The notes beneath the pieces are model-generated. The model saw nothing but the letters and a program-made list of their open reading frames with translations. It had not been told where the DNA came from and made no database searches. This document shows, piece by piece, positions 32,369 to 60,409 of a stretch of DNA of 64,000 bases. The DNA comes from Tubulanus polymorphus (taxonomy: Eukaryota; Nemertea; Palaeonemertea; Tubulaniformes; Tubulanidae), in NCBI RefSeq assembly GCF_964204645.1, contig NC_134036.1:1674001-1738000 (forward strand). The letters are read 5' to 3'. Each line of letters opens with the position of its first letter. Position 1 is the stretch's first letter. The position numbers and the translations under genes are program-made.

Positions 32369-34912
32369 TTATTCGAACCATTTTGATTTTTTTCGTTTAT
32401 TCGAAGTTGTTTTCGAGTTCGTGTCGAATTTCTGTCGATATTTATTCACTAACTGATCGAAACTATCAGCGCCCCCTGCTGGTGCTTTCCTCTTACCGTT
32501 TCTCTGTTTCGGCTCTCGTTGCTGCGCCGGAACTGAGTCCGATTTCTCGACCGTTTGTCGTTTCAATTCGCTACGACTCGGTCGCCCTTTCGGTTTTTCG
32601 GGTAGTTTTTGCGGACCGCGCGGTTTGTGACGTATTTTCGGACCCCAATGCGACGGCAGACCTTTTTTCATTTTACCCGCTGAAACGGCGGCGGCGCCAT
32701 CTGCCGCCGGTACGGGAACCACGACCTGATTACCCGCGACGCGACCTTTCCTCGGGTTCGCGGTTTTCCCCGACGATTCCGCTAATTTCGCCTTCGAGCG
32801 CTCGAGACGTTTCTCCTTGGCGAGAAGTTTCGCCTGATTCTCGAGCGAGAATTCGACAATCGGTCGTTTCTCCGCGCCGAACAACTCCGCGTTATTATTC
32901 ATCGCGCGCAACGCCTTCAACGCGTCGTCATGGCTACCGAGAGCGACGAACGCGTATCCTAGCGACTGTCCGACTCCGCTGGCGTTTAATTTCTTTAAAT
33001 CTCGCATGACGCGACATTCAGTAACCCGCGCCGATGGGACGATCTGTTTAAACGTACGGCGCAACTCGGCGTCTCCGACTCGTTTCGGCAGGTTGTGAAC
33101 GCACAGACGCGTCGACGACACGAATATATTCAGATTTTTCAGCTTGGCGCGTTTAACGGCGTCCAAACGGGCGCGTTTCGCCAGATCGGTTTTCGAGAGG
33201 TTTTCGGCGGCGCGCGTACCCGGTCGTATCATACCCTCGCGTACCAGGTGCAGATTACGTTTATCGGTCGAAGGTTTGTTTCTCTTCTCTTGTTTCTTGG
33301 CCGCGTCGTTCGCTGCGCATTTCTCCCGCGAGATGGCGACACTGACGATCAGACGGCGTCCGTCGAGCGTGATACCGTCGTCGTCCTCGCTCGCCGCAGC
33401 AGCGATACACCGCTCGGCCGCCGACTTCTCGAGGAATTTCACGAACGCCGTACCGCGTGATTTATCGGTATCCGGATTCACGACGATACGCGAGTATTCG
33501 ACCTCGCCGAATTTCTCGAACTCGGTGTCAAGGTCGTCTTCGACGCTGTCGTACGACAGATTCTTCACGAACACGGTTTTACCTTGTTCCACGTCGTTGC
33601 TACGATACGCTTCACGCGGCCGTTTATCATCATAATCATCATCGTCACTCATACTGTCATCATCATCTTCATCGGAATTCGATTCATCATCGCTTTCCTT
33701 TTCATCTTCACTAGATTGGTCATCATTCTCGCTATCAATCTCTGCATCTTCATCGCTAACCATCTCCTCCTCATCTTCACTGGAATTGTCATCATTTTCT
33801 CCATTTTCATCATCGTTAGCGATCTCTGAATCGCTCGCATCATCGTCATCATCATCATCGTCATCACCGCTAGCAACAGCTTGGTCGTTTTGTTGCGACT
33901 CCTCGTATCGACTCTTCGCGAGCGCCCAGTCGACGGCGACCGGTCGACCGGCTATCGACTGACCGTTCATCGCGTCGAGCGCCCGCCGGGCCTCGGCGGT
34001 CGATCCGTACTGGACGAACGCGAAGCCGAATTTTCGCCCGTTGTCGCGCGTCGGTATCCGAGCGTCGGTCAGACGACCAAACGCACGAAACGTTTTACGT
34101 AATAAATCCTCGTTACACGTAAACGCTAAATTACGTACGATCAATCGGGACTTTCGTTCGGATTCCGATTCGCTGATCGCTTTTTGTAAAACGACTTTTA
34201 AAGATTTTCCGCCGATTTTCATCATTTTTAATCGTTTAACGGCGACGATCATCGCGTCCTTCGTCGCGAAGTTCAAGGTCGCTCGATTCTGATTGGTCGA
34301 ACGTTCAAACGCGAGATTCTCGACGTTTTCGATTTTCGAGAATTTTTTCGCGTTGATTTTCGCGTCGCAAAAAACGTCGACCGCATACGTCTTATTCGAG
34401 ACCTTTTTATTCCGCTTTTCACCGACAGGCGGCGCCACTTTCTCTTCGACTTCCTCATTCTCACCGACGCTTTCATCTTCGATTTCCTCCTCATCTTTTG
34501 CCGCCGTCGGTTTTTTCTTTTTCTTCGTCTTTTTCTTCTTATCGGCGAGAACGACCACCAGGGGGCGCCCGTGAAGTTTCGGTTTAAGATTCAGAGCTTT
34601 CTGGGCATCGTCGGGCAGCGAGTAGGTAACGTAACCGAACCCTCGACAGACGGCGGGCGTCGCCGCGATGTCCGACGAATCGCCTCTTCGGTTATTGTTG
34701 CCGCTGACAACGAAGCATTGTTTCATCGGTCCGATCGAACTGAATACTTTCTCCAGATCTTCGTTCGTCGTTTTCGGATGTAAATTCCTTACGAATAACG
34801 TGTTTTTAGAGACGGTCGATCGAACAGCAGCGCCCCCTACTGCTACACCCTCGCCAGGGCTGCCTTCTACACCCTCGCTATCATTTGATGGGTTTTTTGC
34901 TGTTTTTGTCAT
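32369..34912 (-). CDS. RBM28: RBM28 (Nop4-like) nucleolar RNA-binding protein, intronless coding region
   Basis: Nucleolar RRM protein for large-subunit ribosome biogenesis (yeast Nop4). 847 residues, longer than human (759). RRM1 about 38-123 (TLFVRNL...RGFGYVTYS); a degenerate RRM-like stretch about 173-245 (YAVDVFC...RATLNFAT); RRM about 257-340 (SRLIVRNLAF...FGFAFVQYG); a long Asp/Glu/Ser tract about 347-440; RRM about 449-535 (GKTVFVKNLSYD...RGTAFVKF); RRM about 606-700 (TRLCVHNLPK...LGYAFVALG); basic tail ending KRKKSKWFE, the conserved RBM28 terminus. An in-frame ATG 24 bp upstream lies inside a sequence ending TTATTTCAG just before AAAAATGACA, so I read that as the 3' end of a leader intron and start at MTKTAKNP. 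The open plus-strand frames across it are shadows. Confidence 0.97.
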   Translation of the reverse strand: MTKTAKNPSNDSEGVEGSPGEGVAVGGAAVRSTVSKNTLFVRNLHPKTTNEDLEKVFSSIGPMKQCFVVSGNNNRRGDSSDIAATPAVCRGFGYVTYSLPDDAQKALNLKPKLHGRPLVVVLADKKKKTKKKKKPTAAKDEEEIEDESVGENEEVEEKVAPPVGEKRNKKVSNKTYAVDVFCDAKINAKKFSKIENVENLAFERSTNQNRATLNFATKDAMIVAVKRLKMMKIGGKSLKVVLQKAISESESERKSRLIVRNLAFTCNEDLLRKTFRAFGRLTDARIPTRDNGRKFGFAFVQYGSTAEARRALDAMNGQSIAGRPVAVDWALAKSRYEESQQNDQAVASGDDDDDDDDDASDSEIANDDENGENDDNSSEDEEEMVSDEDAEIDSENDDQSSEDEKESDDESNSDEDDDDSMSDDDDYDDKRPREAYRSNDVEQGKTVFVKNLSYDSVEDDLDTEFEKFGEVEYSRIVVNPDTDKSRGTAFVKFLEKSAAERCIAAAASEDDDGITLDGRRLIVSVAISREKCAANDAAKKQEKRNKPSTDKRNLHLVREGMIRPGTRAAENLSKTDLAKRARLDAVKRAKLKNLNIFVSSTRLCVHNLPKRVGDAELRRTFKQIVPSARVTECRVMRDLKKLNASGVGQSLGYAFVALGSHDDALKALRAMNNNAELFGAEKRPIVEFSLENQAKLLAKEKRLERSKAKLAESSGKTANPRKGRVAGNQVVVPVPAADGAAAVSAGKMKKGLPSHWGPKIRHKPRGPQKLPEKPKGRPSRSELKRQTVEKSDSVPAQQREPKQRNGKRKAPAGGADSFDQLVNKYRQKFDTNSKTTSNKRKKSKWFE

Positions 34913-35564
34913 TTTTCTGAAATAAGATAATATCATTGATCGAATTAGAGATTTTTGACTCAGATTTGGTACTTATTTATAACAATCCTTCACAACCTAA
35001 TCTTTCTAGGCCCCTTCCAAAGACCCCAACCAGAACCACATTTATTGATTCTTTTCAATTCAATAACACTAACTAAACCATCGCACAACACATTGAAAGG
35101 CAACCTAAATTTACCCTAACCAGCATCCCTTACCTTCAACCCAAAACTAACAGCAAACCTGTACTGCTAACTGTTTATTTTATCATGACTGGCTGACTGG
35201 ACTGTGAGGATAATAATAAATTTTTGAATTGAATTTGCATCGAAAAATGGTTTATTTCTCGAATAATACTCAACTCGTCACGTGACTTCAACATCGAAAA
35301 TTATAATCCAACAGTTTAAAACGTGAAGTTTACCTCGAAATCGTTTATTAACCGCTCAGCAATTCAGATTAATCACAAATACCACTTTAATCCGATCAGA
35401 AAATATACCATGCGGTAGTGGGGGTTTCCTAATGTAGCGGAATCCCCGTGCTGACGCGTCAAGCGGTGAGGGATTCCGCGCACCTGCCCGTGTAGCTGGA
35501 AAAACCCCTACCTCTCGACGCGATTTTAACTGTCATCGAATTTTGTGGCCTTGTTTGCGCGAAA
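34913..35564. promoter_or_regulatory. Shared divergent promoter region of RBM28 and PEX11G
   Basis: About 650 bp separates the two ATGs, which point away from each other. It contains the leader-intron acceptor of RBM28, a CACGTG E-box (near 35279) and a locally GC-rich block around 35400-35520. No TATA box stands out, as is typical of shared housekeeping promoters. Confidence 0.5.
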
Positions 35565-48338: not shown

Positions 48339-49411
48339 GTGTCGCTGAACTTTACAGTGATCATCCAACTGTAACAATTAGTGAATTTAGTACATTTCGT
48401 GAACGACTGGATTTCGGTTAACAATGTGCAAGAAAAAGTGGAGCAAGGAACCGCAATAGAATGGATGGATATGGGCGGCTACGGTAAAGGTATAATTCAT
48501 TCACCCCTCTCTTCCTCTCATCTCTCCTCTTTCCATTTATCTCACCTACTCTCACCCATTTTTCCCTCGTGTCTCACTCCTTTCAATTTTTCAATTCTCT
48601 CACACCTCTCCTCTCCTACATCACCTCTCTCATTTCTCACTTCTTTCACCGCTTCATCCATTTTTTACTTTGTCTCTCTCGTCTCTCTTATTTGAACCGA
48701 TCTCACTGAAATAAGCGCCTTCGCGATAATGCTCATTTCTGACACACCAAAACCGGAAGAAATGGCGAGAAAATGGGACTCGAACCCAAACAACATTTAA
48801 TGCTTGACCGGTAGTTGTATATTTCTATAGATGGCGCACCGGTCAAGTGCATTAGCACAGAACGGTGGCTATCAATGACTTGCGTACGCTTTATAAACAC
48901 GGTTACGATCAATGGAATAAAACTATTTGTTATGTATCAAGTGCTTGACACCAGGACCTACAAAAATATGATGTCAAAATAGTAGTTGCTCCTATCAACC
49001 TCCTCTATCCCACAGGCCTTCTCACAATTCCTTTACCTCTCACTCCTCTAAGTTATGTATTAAATCTAAAAGTGCTTGACACTAGCAAAAACCGATGTCA
49101 AAATAGAACTCCTCTCACAGGCCTTCTCACAATTCCTTTACTTCTCAATCCTCTCACTTATTTGCAATGACTATTCATTTAAATCATTATCTCTTCTATG
49201 CGTCTTTTCTCATCCCGTTCTCGAACACTCGTCCATGTCATCCTCCCATCTCTACATCATCCGGCAATCTATCAAAGCGTCTTTCATTTTTCTTTCTTGT
49301 GGATTGCATGATAATGGATATTTATTTGATTTAATTTCAGGTTCTGAGAGTGGAATCTTTCTGGATGCGAGTGGAATTGTGACTTGTTGCGCATGTGGAT
49401 TCCAGCTGTGA
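48339..49411 (+). CDS. Two weak candidate 3' exons of an unidentified plus-strand gene
   Basis: Exon 48339-48416 follows a good acceptor (TTATTCCATCCAG) and reads VAELYSDHPTVTISEF then STFRERLDFG. Exon 49341-49411 follows TTTAATTTCAG and reads SESGIFLDASGIVTC then CACGFQL and stop. Both join in phase 1. A different donor and frame in the first exon (NDWISVNNVQEKVEQGT) is also open, so the choice is not secure. No known family is recognised. They could be the end of the gene that starts at 44237, in which case HDHD2 would be nested in its intron. Confidence 0.3.
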
Positions 49412-51616
49412 ATAGGACTTTCCGCAGCAACAGCAGTGGATGCTCATCATCAATGATAATATCGGGAATGGCAAGATAAATCTCAAGAATCAGACGCGAA
49501 CATTTTAATGACTTGTGTTTGTTGATCAGGACTAAATCAGATGAACTAGATAAGATATCTAGATATGTGGGAAAGTTTTAGAACTCTGAATCTTCTCATT
49601 GAGAGGATAAACAAACGAACACAATGGGAGAACTTGACTTCAGTTATAGTGAACTAACTGGACTATCAATGCATTGGTACTCGTAAAAAAGAAAACCATT
49701 CAGTGGTGGACTTCTGGAGGTGTGGAATTGTGGAACCCGGTGGAATATCATCACTGCTAGGCAAAGACTTGTGTGAGTAGAACTTATTATTAGTTTCCAA
49801 AACAATTATGAGAAAGCAGTTTTATCTATTTAGACATATTGTTTACTGAATTTCATAAGAATTGTCAATCGGGTTATTTCAGCAGCCTGTATTACAGGAA
49901 TTATAATTCAGGCTTTAAGTAAGAGTATCAATTTCTGGCTCAAAAATTATTTGAATATTTGGCTGATTAGAAAGAAAATCGTATTTCTGAACCAAATTTC
50001 ATCAAAATTAGTGACGAAATTAAGGGTCAAATCGCTAAATCCTGAATATTTCATTTTAGGGATTTCAGATCCAAAAACTAACTTCATATTCGTGATCAGC
50101 ACCCCAAAAAACATATCTGTACTAAATTTGATTATAATTGGGTCAAAAAAAATTTTTGACTTTGTACCCCATTTTTGAGGTGCATATTTTGGCCATAAAA
50201 ATCCTAATTTGGCCATGAAGATGAATTCCGATTCAAAATCTGATTGCAGATCCGGATTCTACACGCCAGAATACATCTTCCTACCAAGTTGCGAAGGAAT
50301 CAGAGAAAAAAAATTTTTCGCCGAAAAAAAACTCCTTAGATTTTTGCCATTTTTGGCAAAAAAATCGAATCTCTTCGATTTGCTTGAAATTTTAGTCCTA
50401 CGTAATCTCAGGGGTGCTGATTCCAAATCTGCAATCAGATTTTGAATATCTCAAAAACTCTGGGGTCCAAGGCCTTTTCAAATTTTAGGGGTCCGCCCAA
50501 AAATTCGAATTTCTCATTTCTGGTGCCCTGGATCCGACGAATTTTTTCAGATTCGTGATCAGCACCCGAGAATACATGTTGGTACTAAATTTCATCGAAA
50601 TCGGAGACAAAACATATTTTTACCTTAACCCTCATTTTGGGCTGTACCTTAGATTGCCATTTCTCTGATACACCGGTAACTGATTGGTAGCCTCAAATGT
50701 ATTATATTAAGTTTCATGTTTAATTTTAGGACGTTTGTCATCGATACGGTGGAACTATTGACGTTTGTGTTTGTTGATCAGGACTACATCAGATGAACTG
50801 GATAAATATGTGTGGGCAGTGTTAGAACTCACCGAGAGGATAAACAAACAAACGAACAAATATTGGGAGAACGAACTACATAGAACTTATAAGGAGAACT
50901 TGACTTCAGTTACAGTGAACTTTATGTCCACGAGGACTAAATATGTGACATTGCTGCTGATGGGATAAATATCTGTTTGAACTGAAAAATCTAAAACTGC
51001 TCGCGGCATCTAGAATCTGACGGATAGAAAACAACAAGGAACATAGAAGTTTAGGTGATATGCCATCCTATCCTATCTATCATTCTCTCTGCCTCATTCT
51101 CCATCTGCTTGCCATCTACCGGGTTGAGATAGGAACTAGTTCCTGTCTCGCCCGGTAGATGGCATTGTTTTTTTTAAATAAAATGTGCTTAAGCAATGGA
51201 TAAATAGGACTGACTTCCCCTGCGGGTTGTCTAGTGCGTCCCTGTAGCGTAGTTGGTAGGGTGCTGGACTGCTAGCCGAATGGTTGGTGGTTCAAATCCC
51301 GTATTTTGTTAAATGGCTGAATAAAATGTTGAATTTTACTTTTGCAAACAAGCTGTAAGAAATTCCTACTTTGAATTTGGAATAAATGCTTTGATTTGTA
51401 CTTTGCGTTTGTCCTTTCCTTTGTCCCTTCCTATGAGAAGTTGTAAGCGGAAGAGTCCTTTCCTTGGAATAGAGTCCTTTCCGAGGTCGAGTGTGAAGTT
51501 GTGAGGGGAAGAGTCCTTTCCAGAGCAAAGTGCCCGAGACAGAGATTTTTAGTAAAGACGAGCATTTATATAGATGTACGTTTATTTATTTACGTTACTT
51601 TATGCGGCAAAACGAA
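49412..51616. other. Gene-poor region with a duplicated block and a repeat-derived segment
   Basis: A block at about 49517-49670 is repeated in altered form at 50763-50965 (shared TTTGTTGATCAGGACTA, then GAGAGGATAAACAAAC, then GGAGAACTTGACTTCAGTTA). Between them, 50000-50640 is a distinct T/A-run-rich segment with two copies of TTCGTGATCAGCACCC. A tRNA-like fragment is at 51240-51300. Open frames here are not supported as genes. Confidence 0.5.
51240..51300 (+). repeat. tRNA-derived fragment (SINE head or tRNA pseudogene)
   Basis: Has an A-box-like TAGCGTAGTTGG, an anticodon-loop-like CTGGACTGCTAGCC and a B box GGTTCAAATCC at tRNA spacing, but the two sides of the acceptor stem do not pair. 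This fits a SINE head or a dead tRNA gene, not a functional tRNA. Confidence 0.65.
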
Positions 51617-51619
51617 TTA

Positions 51620-52662
51620 ACGGAGTAAAGTCTGCGTCTCCAGAGGTTTGAAGATGGTGCTGTAGTCGGAGTAGAGTCTGCGTCTCGAGGTTTGAAGATG
51701 GTGCTGTAGTCGGAGTAGAGTCTGCGTCTCGGGGTTTGAAGATGTTGCTATAGTCGGAGTAGTCTGCGTCTCGAGGTTTGAAGATGGTGCTGTAGTCAGA
51801 GTAGAGTCTGCGTCTCGGGGTTTGAAGATGTTGCTGTAGTCGGAGTAGAGTCTGCGTCTCGAGGTTTGAAGATGGTGCCGTAGTCGGAGTAGAGTCTGCG
51901 TCTCGAGGTTTGAAGATGGTGCCGTAGTCGGAGTAGAGTCTGCGTCTCGGGGTTTGAAGATGGTGCTGTAGTCAGAGTAGAGTCTGCGTCTCGAGGTTTG
52001 AAGATGGTGCCGTAGTCGGAGTAGAGTCTGCGTCTCGGGGTTTGAAGATGTTGCTGTAGTCGGAGTAGAGTCTGCGTCTCGAGGTTTGAAGATGGTGCCG
52101 TAGTCGGAGTAGAGTCTGCGTCTCGAGGTTTGAAGATGGTGCCGTAGTCGGAGTAGAGTGTGCGTCTCGAGGTTTGAAGATGGTGCTGTAGTCGGAGTAG
52201 AGTGTGCGTCTCGAGGTTTGAAGATGGTGCTGTAGTCGGAGTAGAGTCTGCGTCTCGAGGTTTGAAGATGGTGCTGTAGTCGGAGTAGAGTCTGCGTCTC
52301 GGGGTTTGAAGATGGTGCTGTAGTCGGAGTAGAGTCTGCGTCTCGAGGTTTGAAGATGGTGCTGTAGTCGGAGTAGAGTCTGCGTCTCGAGGTTTGAAGA
52401 TGGTGCTGTAGTCGGAGTAGAGTCTGCGTCTCGAGGTTTGAAGATGGTGCTGTAGTCGGAGTAGAGTCTGCGTCTCGAGGTTTGAAGATGGTGCTGTAGT
52501 CGGAGTAGAGTCTGCGTCTCGAGTTTTGAAGATGGTGCTGTAGTCGGAGTAGAGTGTGCGTCTCGGGGTTTGAAGATGGTGCTGTAGTCGGAGTAGAGTC
52601 TGCGTCTCGAGTTTTGAAGATGGTGCTGTAGTCGGAGTAGAGTCTGCGTCTCGAGGTTTGTG
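51620..52662 (-). repeat. 44-bp minisatellite, about 24 copies
   Basis: Unit on the minus strand: CTCGAGACGCAGACTCTACT, then CCGACTACAGCACCATCTTC and AAAC, 44 bp. Recurrent single-base variants (CCCGAG for CTCGAG, CTACGG for CTACAG, CAACATC for CACCATC, GCACACT for GCAGACT) interleave along the array, so it evolves by unequal exchange. One unit near 51755 has lost 2 bp. Most of it is a coding exon of the gene at 51796-53091. Confidence 0.97.
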
Positions 52663-53091
52663 TAAAAGCGGCTGAAAAACAAATTGATATTGAAATAAAG
52701 TGAATGTCTAATGAAGACGATAATTGAAAATCCAAAGATGATTTTTACGTACCAGAGCAGCAATAACTGTTTGTTCGATCCGGTTCTCGGGAGTAGCAGT
52801 TGCTACAGCAGCAGCAGCAGCACACGTGTTTGATGTTGACGGAAGTGGAAATTGGTTACAACCTAAACAAAAAACAAACCAGTCGATTTACAACTAAACG
52901 ATTCGATTCAAAATCAAAAGCATTTTGAGTAGTTTACATACACTAAATTTCTAACCTCATCAAAATATATGTCGACTTGAAAACTAGTAACAATCCGAAA
53001 ATCAGCAACAAAAGCAACTAGTCATCTGCTGTAGCGATCCGTGGTAATCCGCCATCAGTAGCAATAGCAGCAGCACCAGTCTCCTCTCCAT
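51796..53091 (-). CDS. Predicted secreted repeat protein encoded by the 44-bp minisatellite
   Basis: Unrecognised. Three inferred exons: 53091-53019, 52862-52753, 52671-51796 (352 residues). Exon 1 gives a signal peptide, MERRLVLLLLLLMADYHG. Exon 2 has good splice sites (TTGTTTAG; CTG then GTACGT) and is open for 36 codons (CNQFPLPSTSNTCAAAAA...). Its phase-0 donor joins the acceptor TTTGTTTTTCAG right before the array. Because 44 is not a multiple of 3, the frame cycles through three readings of one DNA unit: RDADSTPTTAPSSN, LETQTLLRLQHHLQT and SRRRLYSDYSTIFKP, about 44 residues per cycle, until TGA at 51798-51796. The two other frames are also open over 263 and 372 residues, but they lack the splice context. 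Weak point: the exon 1 donor (A before GTTGCT). Expression is unproven. Confidence 0.5.
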
Positions 53092-53779
53092 CTCGGGATC
53101 TCCTCCGCAAACGTCAGGACCAACAGTAGCTGTCTCATATTGCGTTCTCAATCGCCAGGTGTCTAAAATTCCTCGACGTTCCAGTCTTTCCTAACATCAT
53201 CGGACGCTAATTAGTAAGTTGTTCGCTTGAAACCATACGTTCTTCACGCCTTTTGGTGAGCTCATATAGGTTGACCTTCATCGCTGGACATCGGTTCTCG
53301 GACTGGCATCGGGAGGCTCGAACCGCGCTTCTAATACCTACGTCGACCAATCAGCGACGTTGCATCATCGAGGCGACCGGAGTGGATCAATCAGAAGGCT
53401 CGATCGCGCATTCCTGTGGCAGACCCGAGTCCGTGACGCTAATCCTCGAGAACCATTCAATTCGTGCCAAACATTTTCAATGGGGCTTACAGGTCATCGA
53501 GTTTAATTCGACTATTCATAGAGAAACATATTGTTAAAGATAGAATACCGAATGTTACAATTTTAGCTTAAAGTATCATACTGCAATTTCATCTAAACTA
53601 TCCAACAAACTTTAGTGAAGATGTCCCCTTTATTTACGTTTAGTTTTGAACTATAATTCCGGCTCAATTTTACTATTTTCGAGTTTTGCTTCAGGAATAT
53701 TGAAGTTTGTGCAGTCACGCGGCACTATTGTGTAGCAGAGCGTATGGCAGGTCTCCAGTGAGCGATTCTCTATTCGATT

Positions 53780-54380
53780 GTCGTTTTTAGCCGATTTTAT
53801 ACACACGTTTACCAGACATCGCTACGTACACATCTACTCTGAGTCTACTCTGGCGAAGTTTAAAAAATCATTGAAGTTTTGTCAATTTACCTGGAGATTG
53901 ATGGCTGCATTACTTACATTACATCTGCATTACATCTACGGAATTCTCGTTGGGATTTTTTCGAAACAAAAATAAACAATTTCCCAAACCCTCACCAGTC
54001 AACTTAAAATAACAAACTAATATTGTAAAAAAATCGAAGGTCCCTGGGGGAAATACTCCGCAACCTGGACCGGCATTGTGGGATAAATAAATAATTCAGC
54101 CAGAAACGACTGAATTAAACATAATTTACCCCACGCCAGATATTCTGTAGGACTCACGCATTAGCAACCTCATTCCAGGGAGGACAGTACTCTCGACTCG
54201 CCCGCTTACCGGAGATCACTTGCCACATCCTGACCCGCCTCCTCCGAGACTCGAACCTGGGCCACAGCGGTGACACGCTAGTCGCCGACCGACTAAGCCA
54301 TCCGGTCCGCCCGATTGGTGCCGGTAAACATTCACAGATATTCGCCGACCATTCACATTCGGACAAAACACTGTGACGTC
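53780..54380. repeat. Direct repeat, left copy, containing a tRNA-derived SINE on the minus strand
   Basis: About 600 bp, closely matched by 59640-60255. It includes TTTACCAGACATCGCTACGT, AAATTACCTGGAGATTGAT-type sequence, AACAAACTAATATTGTAAAA and, on the minus strand, a tRNA-like head (GGATGGCTTAGTCGG A box; CAGGTTCGAGTCTCGG B box) at about 54207-54317. A short reading frame (HTFTRHRYVHIYSESTLAKF) is conserved in both copies with changes. Confidence 0.75.
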
Positions 54381-55001
54381 ACAGTGTGTTGAAAGCCAAT
54401 GCACAGCATTGAATCAGAAAATCAGAATTATTTCAACGATTAAATAATTTTCGAACTTTCAAATGAGAGTTTTTTAACTGCACCAGCAGTTGAGCGTGTG
54501 GCGTCCTGGCAACATGCCAGCTTTTCACCTTAGTGTCTGATGTACCACAGTATGGTTGTACTAAGAACGACGGATATCTCTGTCGAGACCAGGACTGAGT
54601 GAACCCAGCTTTATATAGCGGTCCTGGAAATCTACATGTCACTATCTTCTGATAACGCGCTCCTATTTCCTCTCATCACGGGAGTTCAGACCAAATGTCT
54701 TACACCAGAACAAGTTTTATTTCATTTTTTATTTTTCTATTTCGATTAATTTAGGAATTTCAGGGCGATTCGTTAGATTGGTTATAGAAACGATCTAAAA
54801 TTCTAAGCAATGATTGTACAACTGTCCTCAGAATGATCCAGGATGATATGAAAACCTGAGACAAATTTGACTATAGTGGAATTTAAAACTGGATAATGAT
54901 AATGATATTTATTTGTGTTATATTTTCTTTTTACAATATTAAATCGTAATTAAATACATTATTATAATAATTCCAATAATAATTAATATTTTTTTCAAAT
55001 A

Positions 55002-56593: not shown

Positions 56594-58508
56594 CTATTTT
56601 GTACGAGTGAGTACAGTGTTTATATTATAAACTCGCAGTGAGTCCGTTTTATTACTGTTATCCCAGTGACGGATAACTACAGTGTTACTGTCATATATTT
56701 TGTATATCTCATATGTCACACTGTCAGTAGAGTTCAATACTATACGCGGGTGATCTATAAACCCCTCATCATTATATCTCATACTAATCACGGCTCCTTT
56801 GTTACCAGTCCTAGAGTTTACCGATAATAATACATGTTTATCATTGATTATACACGGGGACCCCGCAAGTGGATCAAATGTTAGTCCGGAATCTTCCACA
56901 TTGATAAAACTGATCAATTCCGCATCAGCTGTTAGATAGAGTAATCTTCCCGATCTATTACAGTATACAAACATGCGTCCCCGCGTGTCGACATCTAAAC
57001 TGTTGATATATTCGTACTCTCCATCCGGGAGCTGATATTTTTTCACACGGTTTCTATCAATTAAACTATTTACAGGGTTTTCTAATAGACGTAAAACACG
57101 AACGTCTCTATCTAACTGGATGTAAATATTGTTACCGCGAATGACTAGTGTTCCACATCCAGACACAATATCAGTGACATCTTCCTCTAACACTTTGTCC
57201 TGATCTTTATATTTTCTCAGGCAGAGTTTCTTGTTTTTCTTCACGACTACAAACAGGTGACCGTTACTATCTGTATCGAGTCCTCGTACATAATCATCAA
57301 CACACTCTATATATCTCTTCATTACATTATTATCATCCATGTAATATATATCACTGGACCCCCAGAGGTCCGCACATATTATACGTGACTGTTGACCCGT
57401 CTGCTCACCAGGTAATGACGTCACTAGACTGGGTCTGAAGTCTGTCTGAACCTGTTTACTGATCGTTAATGAATCAATGACGTCACCAATAGAACTCTCC
57501 ACTTCATCCATTCTCCCTATGACGTCACCAATAGATATCTCCAATTTATCTATTCTCCCTTTGACATCATTGATTGTTCTTCCTGTGACGTCATCGATAG
57601 TCTTATTCAGTTTTACTTCCAGTTGTTGTTCAGTACATGCTTCAAGTTGTTGTTCAGTACAGCACCGGTTCAGCCTCTCTTCAAGTTGTTGTTCAGTACA
57701 GCACCGGTTCAGCCTCTCTTCAAGTTGTTGTTCAGTACAGCACCGGTTCAGCCTCTCTTCAACTGTGTCTATAGTGCGCTTAAATTGAGAGAATTGATTT
57801 TCTAAATTATCATGAAACAGTTTGACATTGTCAATTAGGGAATGATGACGTTGATCAATGTCTGGTTGAACTGTTCGCGCTTCACTGATCGGTACAGTGT
57901 TCACTCTAAACACGTATTCGTTTCCGTGACGACAAGCACCGATTACAAGACCCGAACCTATTGATTGCGGAGATTGTTGAAGTTTCGATTTGTAGATTTC
58001 ACACATTTCTTCATTTTCACATTTAACAATAAACACCTGATTCTGAGGTTGATGATTGAACGGGATCGGATGATTCGGTATCTCCACACCAGAGGGCGCA
58101 TCTCCCCATTCTAATTTCACCTGAAATAGAAAACGACATTTTTATTTGACTCTCACCTCGCAGTGGTCACCCGTTTAGTATCACACGCGGGTGATGATGA
58201 AACTGAAGATGAGAATTACAGATTCTTACCTCATCAAACGGCATCATCTGCACCGCTATTACGTGACCTGTATAGATGGTTTTTAGTTCGTGTTTAATAG
58301 CAGCCTCTAATTCTTCACACCACAGAGTTATATCAAGTTGTAATATATTTCCATCCGCAGTTATTCGATCAGATTCCAAATTAAACAGCGGCTGATAAAA
58401 GTAATTTTGTGTCGTTCTGTACTCATTATCCTGATCGGACCAAACGTTAACGCGACGCCCTTTGAAAGGTACGGAAATCTCGAAACGATCCGGATTACTT
58501 GTAGCCAT
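56594..58508 (-). CDS. Orphan two-exon protein: N-terminal globular domain, coiled coil, probable beta-propeller
   Basis: Not recognised. Exon 1 is 58508-58230 (ATG, phase-0 donor GTAAGA), exon 2 is 58120-56594 (acceptor ATTTCAG); 601 residues. Residues 1-175 are a globular region (RFEISVPFKGRRVNVW; ILQLDITLWCEELEAAIKHE; QVFIVKCENEEMCEIYKSKL). About 183-328 is a predicted coiled coil that includes three exact 13-residue repeats, EERLNRCCTEQQL (39-bp DNA repeat at 57645-57761), each with a CC pair that could crosslink chains. About 343-601 has regularly spaced strands of the type ICADLWGSSDIYYMDD, YVRGLDTDSNGHLFVVVKK, INSLDVDTRGRMFVYCNRS and SPCIINDKHVLLSVNS, typical of an NHL/six-bladed propeller. 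No RING or B-box is seen, so it is not a standard TRIM protein. The role is unknown; a scaffold is likely from the architecture (inference). Confidence 0.8.
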
Positions 58509-59639: not shown

Positions 59640-60255
59640 ACGTTTTATGCACACGTTCACCAGACATCACTGCGTATACATCTACTCTGAGTGGAAGCTG
59701 GCGAAGTTTAAAGAATCATGGAAGTTTGTCATCACTTGTAATGAAATTACCTGGAGATTGATAGCTGCATTACTAACAAAGATCTACGGAATTCTCGCTG
59801 GGATTTTTTCGATTTCTTCGAGGAATTAAACAAGAGTAAAAAAAAATTTCCCAAACCCTCACCACTCAACTTAAAATAACAAACTAATATTGTAAAAAAA
59901 TCGAAGCCCCTGGTGGAATTACCCGCTGCCGGGACCGAGATGACGAGATAAATAAATAATTCAGCCAGAAACGACTGAATTAAATAATACTTTACCCCGC
60001 CACCGGTGGGATATAGGACTCACGCATTAGCAACCTCATTCCAGGGAGGACAGTGCTGCGCGTAGCCACCGTCCGCTTACCGGAGCTCATTGCCACATCC
60101 TGACCCGCCTCCTCCGAGACTCGAACCTGGGCCACAGCGGTGACACGCTAGTCGCCTACCGACTAAGCCATCCGGTCCGCCCGATCGTAGCCGGTAAACA
60201 TTCACAGATATTCGCCGACTATTCACATTCGGACAAAAGGCCGTGACGTCCAAAT
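59640..60255. repeat. Direct repeat, right copy, containing a tRNA-derived SINE on the minus strand
   Basis: Partner of 53780-54380, same orientation. It includes ACACGTTCACCAGACATCAC, AACAAACTAATATTGTAAAA, CATTAGCAACCTCATTCCAG and the minus-strand tRNA-like head at about 60068-60184 (same A and B boxes). Divergence is scattered, with small indels. Confidence 0.75.
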
Positions 60256-60409
60256 GGAAAGACGGTGATCATGGGTTAACAACTAAACCCACAGACTGTC
60301 AAACAACTTCAATCGGGCTCAATTGTAAATAAATGCAACTTCTACTTTAGAATCTAACTTTCCACATCCCACATATTTTCATTGAATTGCAAGCTGTTGA
60401 TTTGATTCT

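Follow-up and report, generated by a model that had tools for sequence, protein, structure and literature searches.

The window, which is the whole stretch of 64,000 nucleotides analyzed here, carries a 44-bp minisatellite that, on balance, probably constitutes most of exon 3 in a transcript that would be spliced, probably polyadenylated and most likely non-coding. This transcript would come from one of about 60 paralogous loci. The sequence evidence for this reading covers a multicopy block, splice-like sites, an AATAAA signal, the loss of reading frames and a unit core kept between loci. The spliced non-coding family is favored over, in order of falling probability, a dispersed repeat, an array lying in a 3' untranslated region and a protein exon read in three frames.

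The array and its family of copies

The array, delimited by Tandem Repeats Finder, three-frame translation and unit alignment, extends from 51621 to 52660 on the minus strand and consists of 23.6 copies of the 44-bp unit with 95% matches. The original prediction had correctly recognized a unit repeated about 24 times, but it placed the end of the array at 51796, which is only the stop of a single frame; the repeat continues for 175 bp past this position, to its true end at 51621. The unit is C/A-rich (17 C, 13 A, 8 T, 6 G). Three-frame translation confirms that its minus-strand consensus contains no stop in any frame, as had been stated, and the array of the window copy, as sequenced, has 0, 2 and 1 stops in its three minus-strand frames. 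This openness is not rare: equal openness is found in 33% of the dinucleotide-preserving circular shuffles of the unit, so that the openness of the unit alone says little, and 763 of the 5815 44-mers taken from the window are open on one strand. The case illustrates that a minisatellite without stops in three frames may look like a coding exon; such an apparent exon can be tested by comparing paralogs within one assembly.

The locus had been put forward as a single undescribed gene. Instead, it is one of about 60: in the 267.8-Mb assembly (77 contigs), the merged matches of the genome searches define 60 loci, the window locus included, with parts of the same ~5-kb block. This count is a lower bound, and some queries did not match every locus. 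The contigs C9, C11, C12 and C22 hold 59 of them, with 16 on C9, 21 on C11, 21 on C12 (including the window copy) and 1 on the small C22; the last one is located on C8. Queries with the 5' part, the middle, the array and the 3' flank each gave 61-66 candidate places, of which the best 40 were scored per search, and all places listed fall within 6.4 Mb of the start of their contigs. Spacings of about 41-43 kb separate four of the C11 copies. A let-7 match of 51.1 bits, slightly under the 53.5 bits required for the family, points to a bilaterian animal, let-7 being a mark of Bilateria. Beside the 60 loci, searches of the genome and the window revealed that the 5' part of the block occurs a second time in the window, as a partial copy at 59644-60257 (minus strand).

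The array is present in each of the 40 copies that were compared, namely the window copy and 39 further loci, and its size varies from 5.6 to 23.6 units in ten copies. Nine 10-kb copies align with the window from about 54413 to 49645, and this is the whole block common to the other copies (49645-54413, minus strand). Its ends are fuzzy and vary by subgroup, because different further flanks are common to different subgroups of copies. Two parts of the block upstream of the array are well conserved in the alignment. Conserved block 1 (54020-54330, minus strand) is 94-99% identical between the window copy and the nine others in the 50-base bins from 54310 to 54060, and its 50 variable sites are distributed over the codon positions as 22/16/12. 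Conserved block 2 (53330-53780, minus strand) reaches 83-96% per 50-base bin against the same nine copies, about 95% in the bins from 53510 to 53360, and shows no frame periodicity (34/26/34 variable sites by codon position). Conserved block 1 contains what we take, by eye, to be a tRNA-like A box (54289-54300) and B box (54246-54257). The reading as a tRNA gene was rejected, as none was found by ARAGORN; an Rfam search of 53250-54450 gave no match at E<=1.

Further downstream, from 53210 to 52710, the identity of the window copy to the nine others is only 25-75%. The same drop is seen with the near paralog L013, to which the window is 90-100% identical in most bins from 54610 to 53710, then 84-86% in two bins and 36-80% across 53210 to 52710. 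The segment 53230-52660 is the only one in which the window strongly differs from this close paralog. This suggests a past exchange between divergent copies, in which one copy would have received the segment from a distant lineage.

With about 60 copies, the family may also be a dispersed duplicating repeat (a non-autonomous mobile element or a segmental duplicon) with an internal minisatellite, whose splice signals would be vestiges of a source gene or chance. This is a serious rival, if a less probable one. The tRNA-like sequences and a palindrome within the block are in agreement with it, as are the missing conserved open frame and the occurrence of minisatellites inside mobile elements, which is described in the literature (PMC6947457). 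However, the copies have no sharp common ends, the subgroups differing in their further flanks, and no terminal inverted repeat of at least 18 bases was found in 49300-54700, where the only two pairs of inverted repeats of this length are both internal. These results speak against a mobile element with sharp ends. Moreover, transposase, integrase, Rep/helicase and reverse transcriptase domains were absent above the cut-off from the 8 ORFs scanned, which come from four of the nine 10-kb copies; one endonuclease-reverse transcriptase match remained below it (21.5 of 27.4 bits) and is located inside an ShK protein. In an empty-site comparison, the flanks of four paralogs of the neighboring gene match the window as far as about 54757, short of the block, apart from which four short matches (43-93 bp) are found at 41.5-47.6 kb, out of order; this pattern favors neither reading. 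The splice-like sites, finally, outlast the divergence of the sequence that surrounds them.

Variable-number tandem repeats inside dispersed blocks are also described for Gmr9/GmOgre of soybean (PMC3305785) and for the DINE-TR1 Helitron repeats of Drosophila (PMC6947457). Unlike in these elements, no coding domain, terminal repeat or sharp end was found in the present block, and its copies are crowded in parts of three contigs.

Predicted exons and splice-like sites

Comparison of the copies predicts three exons on the minus strand, the array making up most of the third. Predicted exon 1 (52956-53235), based also on the frame analysis, has an assumed 5' end and holds the ATG leader of the original prediction. 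It would be followed by intron 1 (52863-52955), with the donor GATGAG/GTTAGA and the acceptor TTTGTTTAG/GT. The donor at 52955, which had been missed earlier, is an additional one, common to the C12/C8-type copies. Predicted exon 2 (52753-52862), 110 nt long and CTG-rich, corresponds to the upstream open exon noticed before: it comprises 36 codons plus 2 nt, with one frame open, behind a TTTAG acceptor. Predicted intron 2 (52672-52752, 81 nt) extends from the donor CTG/GTACGT to the acceptor TTTTTCAG, and the CAG at 52674-52672, proposed as the acceptor directly before the array, is indeed present.

These sites recur among the copies, as judged with search patterns that were picked after viewing the alignment. 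Within 90 bases ahead of the first unit, all 40 copies have a pyrimidine-rich acceptor AG; it was detected by a first pattern in 39 of them and by a second in L030, and its place in L044 and L051 is not securely aligned. The exon-2 donor is present in 38 of the 40 and lacking in L044 and L051. For the exon-2 acceptor, the pattern is matched in 36 of the 40; among the remaining four, the AG is lost in L022, a TTTAG is recognizable by eye in L024, and L044 and L051 have a weak CTAG only. Upstream of the array, the six lineage consensuses are 36-81% identical in pairs (median 53%), and the pre-array acceptor, the donor preceding it and the exon-2 acceptor recur homologously in lineages this far apart, by which the proposed splicing into the array gains support.

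In a tolerant site test, for which the weights were assumed and donor 1 of L025 was hand-placed 4 bases off, the window copy, L025, L020 and L013 have all four splice-like sites. The per-site chance of an equal site within 8 bases is 0.001-0.036; as the copies are related, these chances are not independent and cannot be multiplied. L030 is without donor 1 in this test, and L044 retains only two sites, both weak (chance of 0.049 for donor 1 and 0.037 for the last acceptor). When the four splice dinucleotides were tested strictly, column by column, p was only 0.035-0.052, a test hampered by alignment slips of 1-2 bases. With this reservation, the splice sites are conserved among the copies, whereas the reading frame is not. 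Splice-site conservation is a recognized signature of long non-coding RNAs (PMC7734150).

A TATA-like sequence, CTATATGAG, is located at 53261-53269 (minus strand) and occurs as CTATAAGAG in many copies; it may act as a promoter element. At the other end, AATAAATAAAC (51580-51590, minus strand) lies directly 3' of the array and is a possible poly(A) signal: an AATAAA comes right after the array in every one of the ten copies aligned. Several observations speak against a transcript family. Donor 1 is missing in the C9/C11/C22-type copies (its motif in 22 of 22), splice sites are lost in L044, L051 and L022, several copies have an altered TATA-like site or have lost it, the strict dinucleotide test is weak, and the RNA of the array folds no better than its shuffles.

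Coding potential

The original prediction explained the array as a protein exon behind an ATG-started leader, with successive 44-bp units translated in each of the three frames by turns. Besides the open minus-strand consensus and the conserved acceptor, this model can draw on L013, L025, L026 and L049, in which an ATG frame does enter the array, and on alternative pairs of start codon and donor: when all ATG-donor pairs from 54400 down to exon 2 were listed, 20 were found to run open into the array of the window. It is nevertheless highly improbable. The ATG at 53091 (MERRLVLLLLLLMADYHGSLQQMTSCFCC) exists, but the join of leader and exon is not confirmed: a TGA precedes the donor at 52955 and the frame ends, after MTSCFCC, ahead of this conserved site. 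The leader could reach exon 2 openly only via a donor at 53018, with 4 of 9 positions as in the consensus, or one at 53009, with 3 of 9. In the window copy, no ATG frame enters the array, whether the introns are spliced out at the conserved sites or one or both of them are kept, and the best donor among the 20 alternative pairs, CCG/GTAAGC at 54209, comes with a start of only 7 residues.

The comparison of copies leads to the same result. Frames were modeled in 36 copies (L022, L024, L044 and L051 were not modellable), with exon 1 continuous into exon 2 in those without the pattern of donor 1, L025 included. Apart from the four copies named above, the other 32 have no ATG frame into the array, so the family does not keep a frame that begins at a start codon and stays open across the array. 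The length of exon 2 varies from 110 to 235 nt in the 36 copies and is distributed as 6/11/19 modulo three; hence, it is not kept in threes. Stops are not avoided within the array either: 94 of 296 full units, counted in arrays of which 30 of 40 were fetched only in part, hold a stop in at least one frame. Furthermore, the consensus itself has a stop in 10 of the 36 arrays with at least four full units, in nine by the same change. As the 44-bp unit turns the frame each time, a stop in the consensus closes every frame within three units. On the basis of the broken frames, the stops in the arrays and the exon-2 lengths, a coding exon was rejected. The translated array gives Pfam matches, of which Proho_convert, for one, exceeds its cut-off; these are taken as chance matches of low-complexity sequence.

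Coding minisatellites such as those of MUC2 and Prdm9 are similar in that the minisatellite sits in an exon. The present unit differs in not being a multiple of three, in the stops of its arrays and in the absence of a conserved start codon leading in.

A coding function could also reside upstream, with the array as the 3' untranslated part of the mRNA of a small protein, begun in exon 1 (MRLAAVGADDC...) and stopped in exon 2 or earlier. This is unlikely, if less so than the protein read in three frames. L016, L017 and L029, all of the C12/C8 type, do possess an ATG frame of 58-69 codons that starts in exon 1 and ends before the array, but the frame is broken in the window copy and has no ATG in L015 and L032.

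The repeat unit, the flanks and other open frames

Variation is unevenly distributed within the 44-bp unit. Only 1 distinct between-locus variant of the consensus falls in unit positions 1-27, versus 8 in the next 12 positions; for single-unit variants, the numbers are 27 and 21. The contrast is significant (Fisher p 0.025; 0.007 without variants fixed anywhere), with a boundary of the core that was set after inspecting the data. The 27-nt core (CUCGAGACGCAGACUCUACUCCGACUA) looks to be under constraint, and exchange between loci could also keep the units alike. A structured RNA was rejected: the folding of the array RNA is no better than that of shuffled sequences (z 1.48; 189 of 200 shuffles as good), and no Rfam family matches the window at the gathering cut-off. 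With the array RNA unstructured, the role of a single-stranded platform for binding suits it better than that of a folded domain.

For the spliced non-coding transcript, the following course can be proposed. Transcription would start near the TATA-like site, around 53265, and the introns 52955-52863 and 52752-52672 would be spliced out. In the resulting RNA, a weakly structured 44-nt unit would be repeated about 6-24 times; its near-invariant core might be bound by some factor, with the copy number setting the valency. In a bolder and more doubtful version, the ~60 loci, crowded in parts of three chromosomes, would be spliced non-coding RNA genes whose functional part is the variable-number array of the constrained 27-nt motif, that is, an RNA of adjustable valency, with dose and copy number evolving by unequal exchange.

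Local repeats are described for the mammalian Firre and Xist (PMC7734150). Like them, the present locus is predicted to give a spliced non-coding transcript, in which a tandem local repeat ranks among the parts that are conserved best; no sequence kinship is claimed. It differs from them in its about 60 paralogous loci, versus one, in the weak structure of the 44-nt unit and in being known from sequence alone. A literature search, in which subscription journals are poorly covered, gave no description of the 44-bp repeat among the matches listed. If transcribed, the family would be a many-copy system in which to ask what a tandem repeat does inside an RNA, as its paralogs offer, in one genome, both variation in unit number and natural losses of splice sites.

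The 3' flank of the array (50950-51620, minus strand) is conserved as well, with 65 candidate places in the genome search, of which the best 40 were scored. It includes a near-perfect palindrome of 57 nt (51109-51165), with arms of about 27 and one bulge, that is retained, with changes, in ten aligned copies. In an Rfam search of 50900-51640, two miRNA models match the palindrome, far below the cut-off. The palindrome adjoins a GA-rich stretch and a tRNA-like sequence on the plus strand (about 51239-51300). Further tandem arrays after the 44-bp array vary among L014, L015, L016, L018 and L019: they are GA-rich or have a 20-bp unit near TAGTCCGGTTAGTTCACTAG, and some of these copies have a 23-bp unit near TGAGAGGTTGAGGGAGGATGGGG.

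A few other open frames were noticed as well. A 515-aa open frame at 56594-58141 (minus strand) belongs to a multicopy family with 143 matching stretches in the assembly. It has no Pfam match over the cut-off and no PDB match, and within it a 13-residue coding repeat of 39 bp (57640-57762) varies in copy number between paralogs. At a C11 copy, a plus-strand frame (L015:1831-2691) situated about 1.3 kb upstream of the block encodes five ShK domains with Thr-rich linkers. At 32369-34972 of the window (minus strand), a single-exon frame of 867 aa has four RRM stretches and an acidic stretch, and is presumably similar to RBM28/Nop4.
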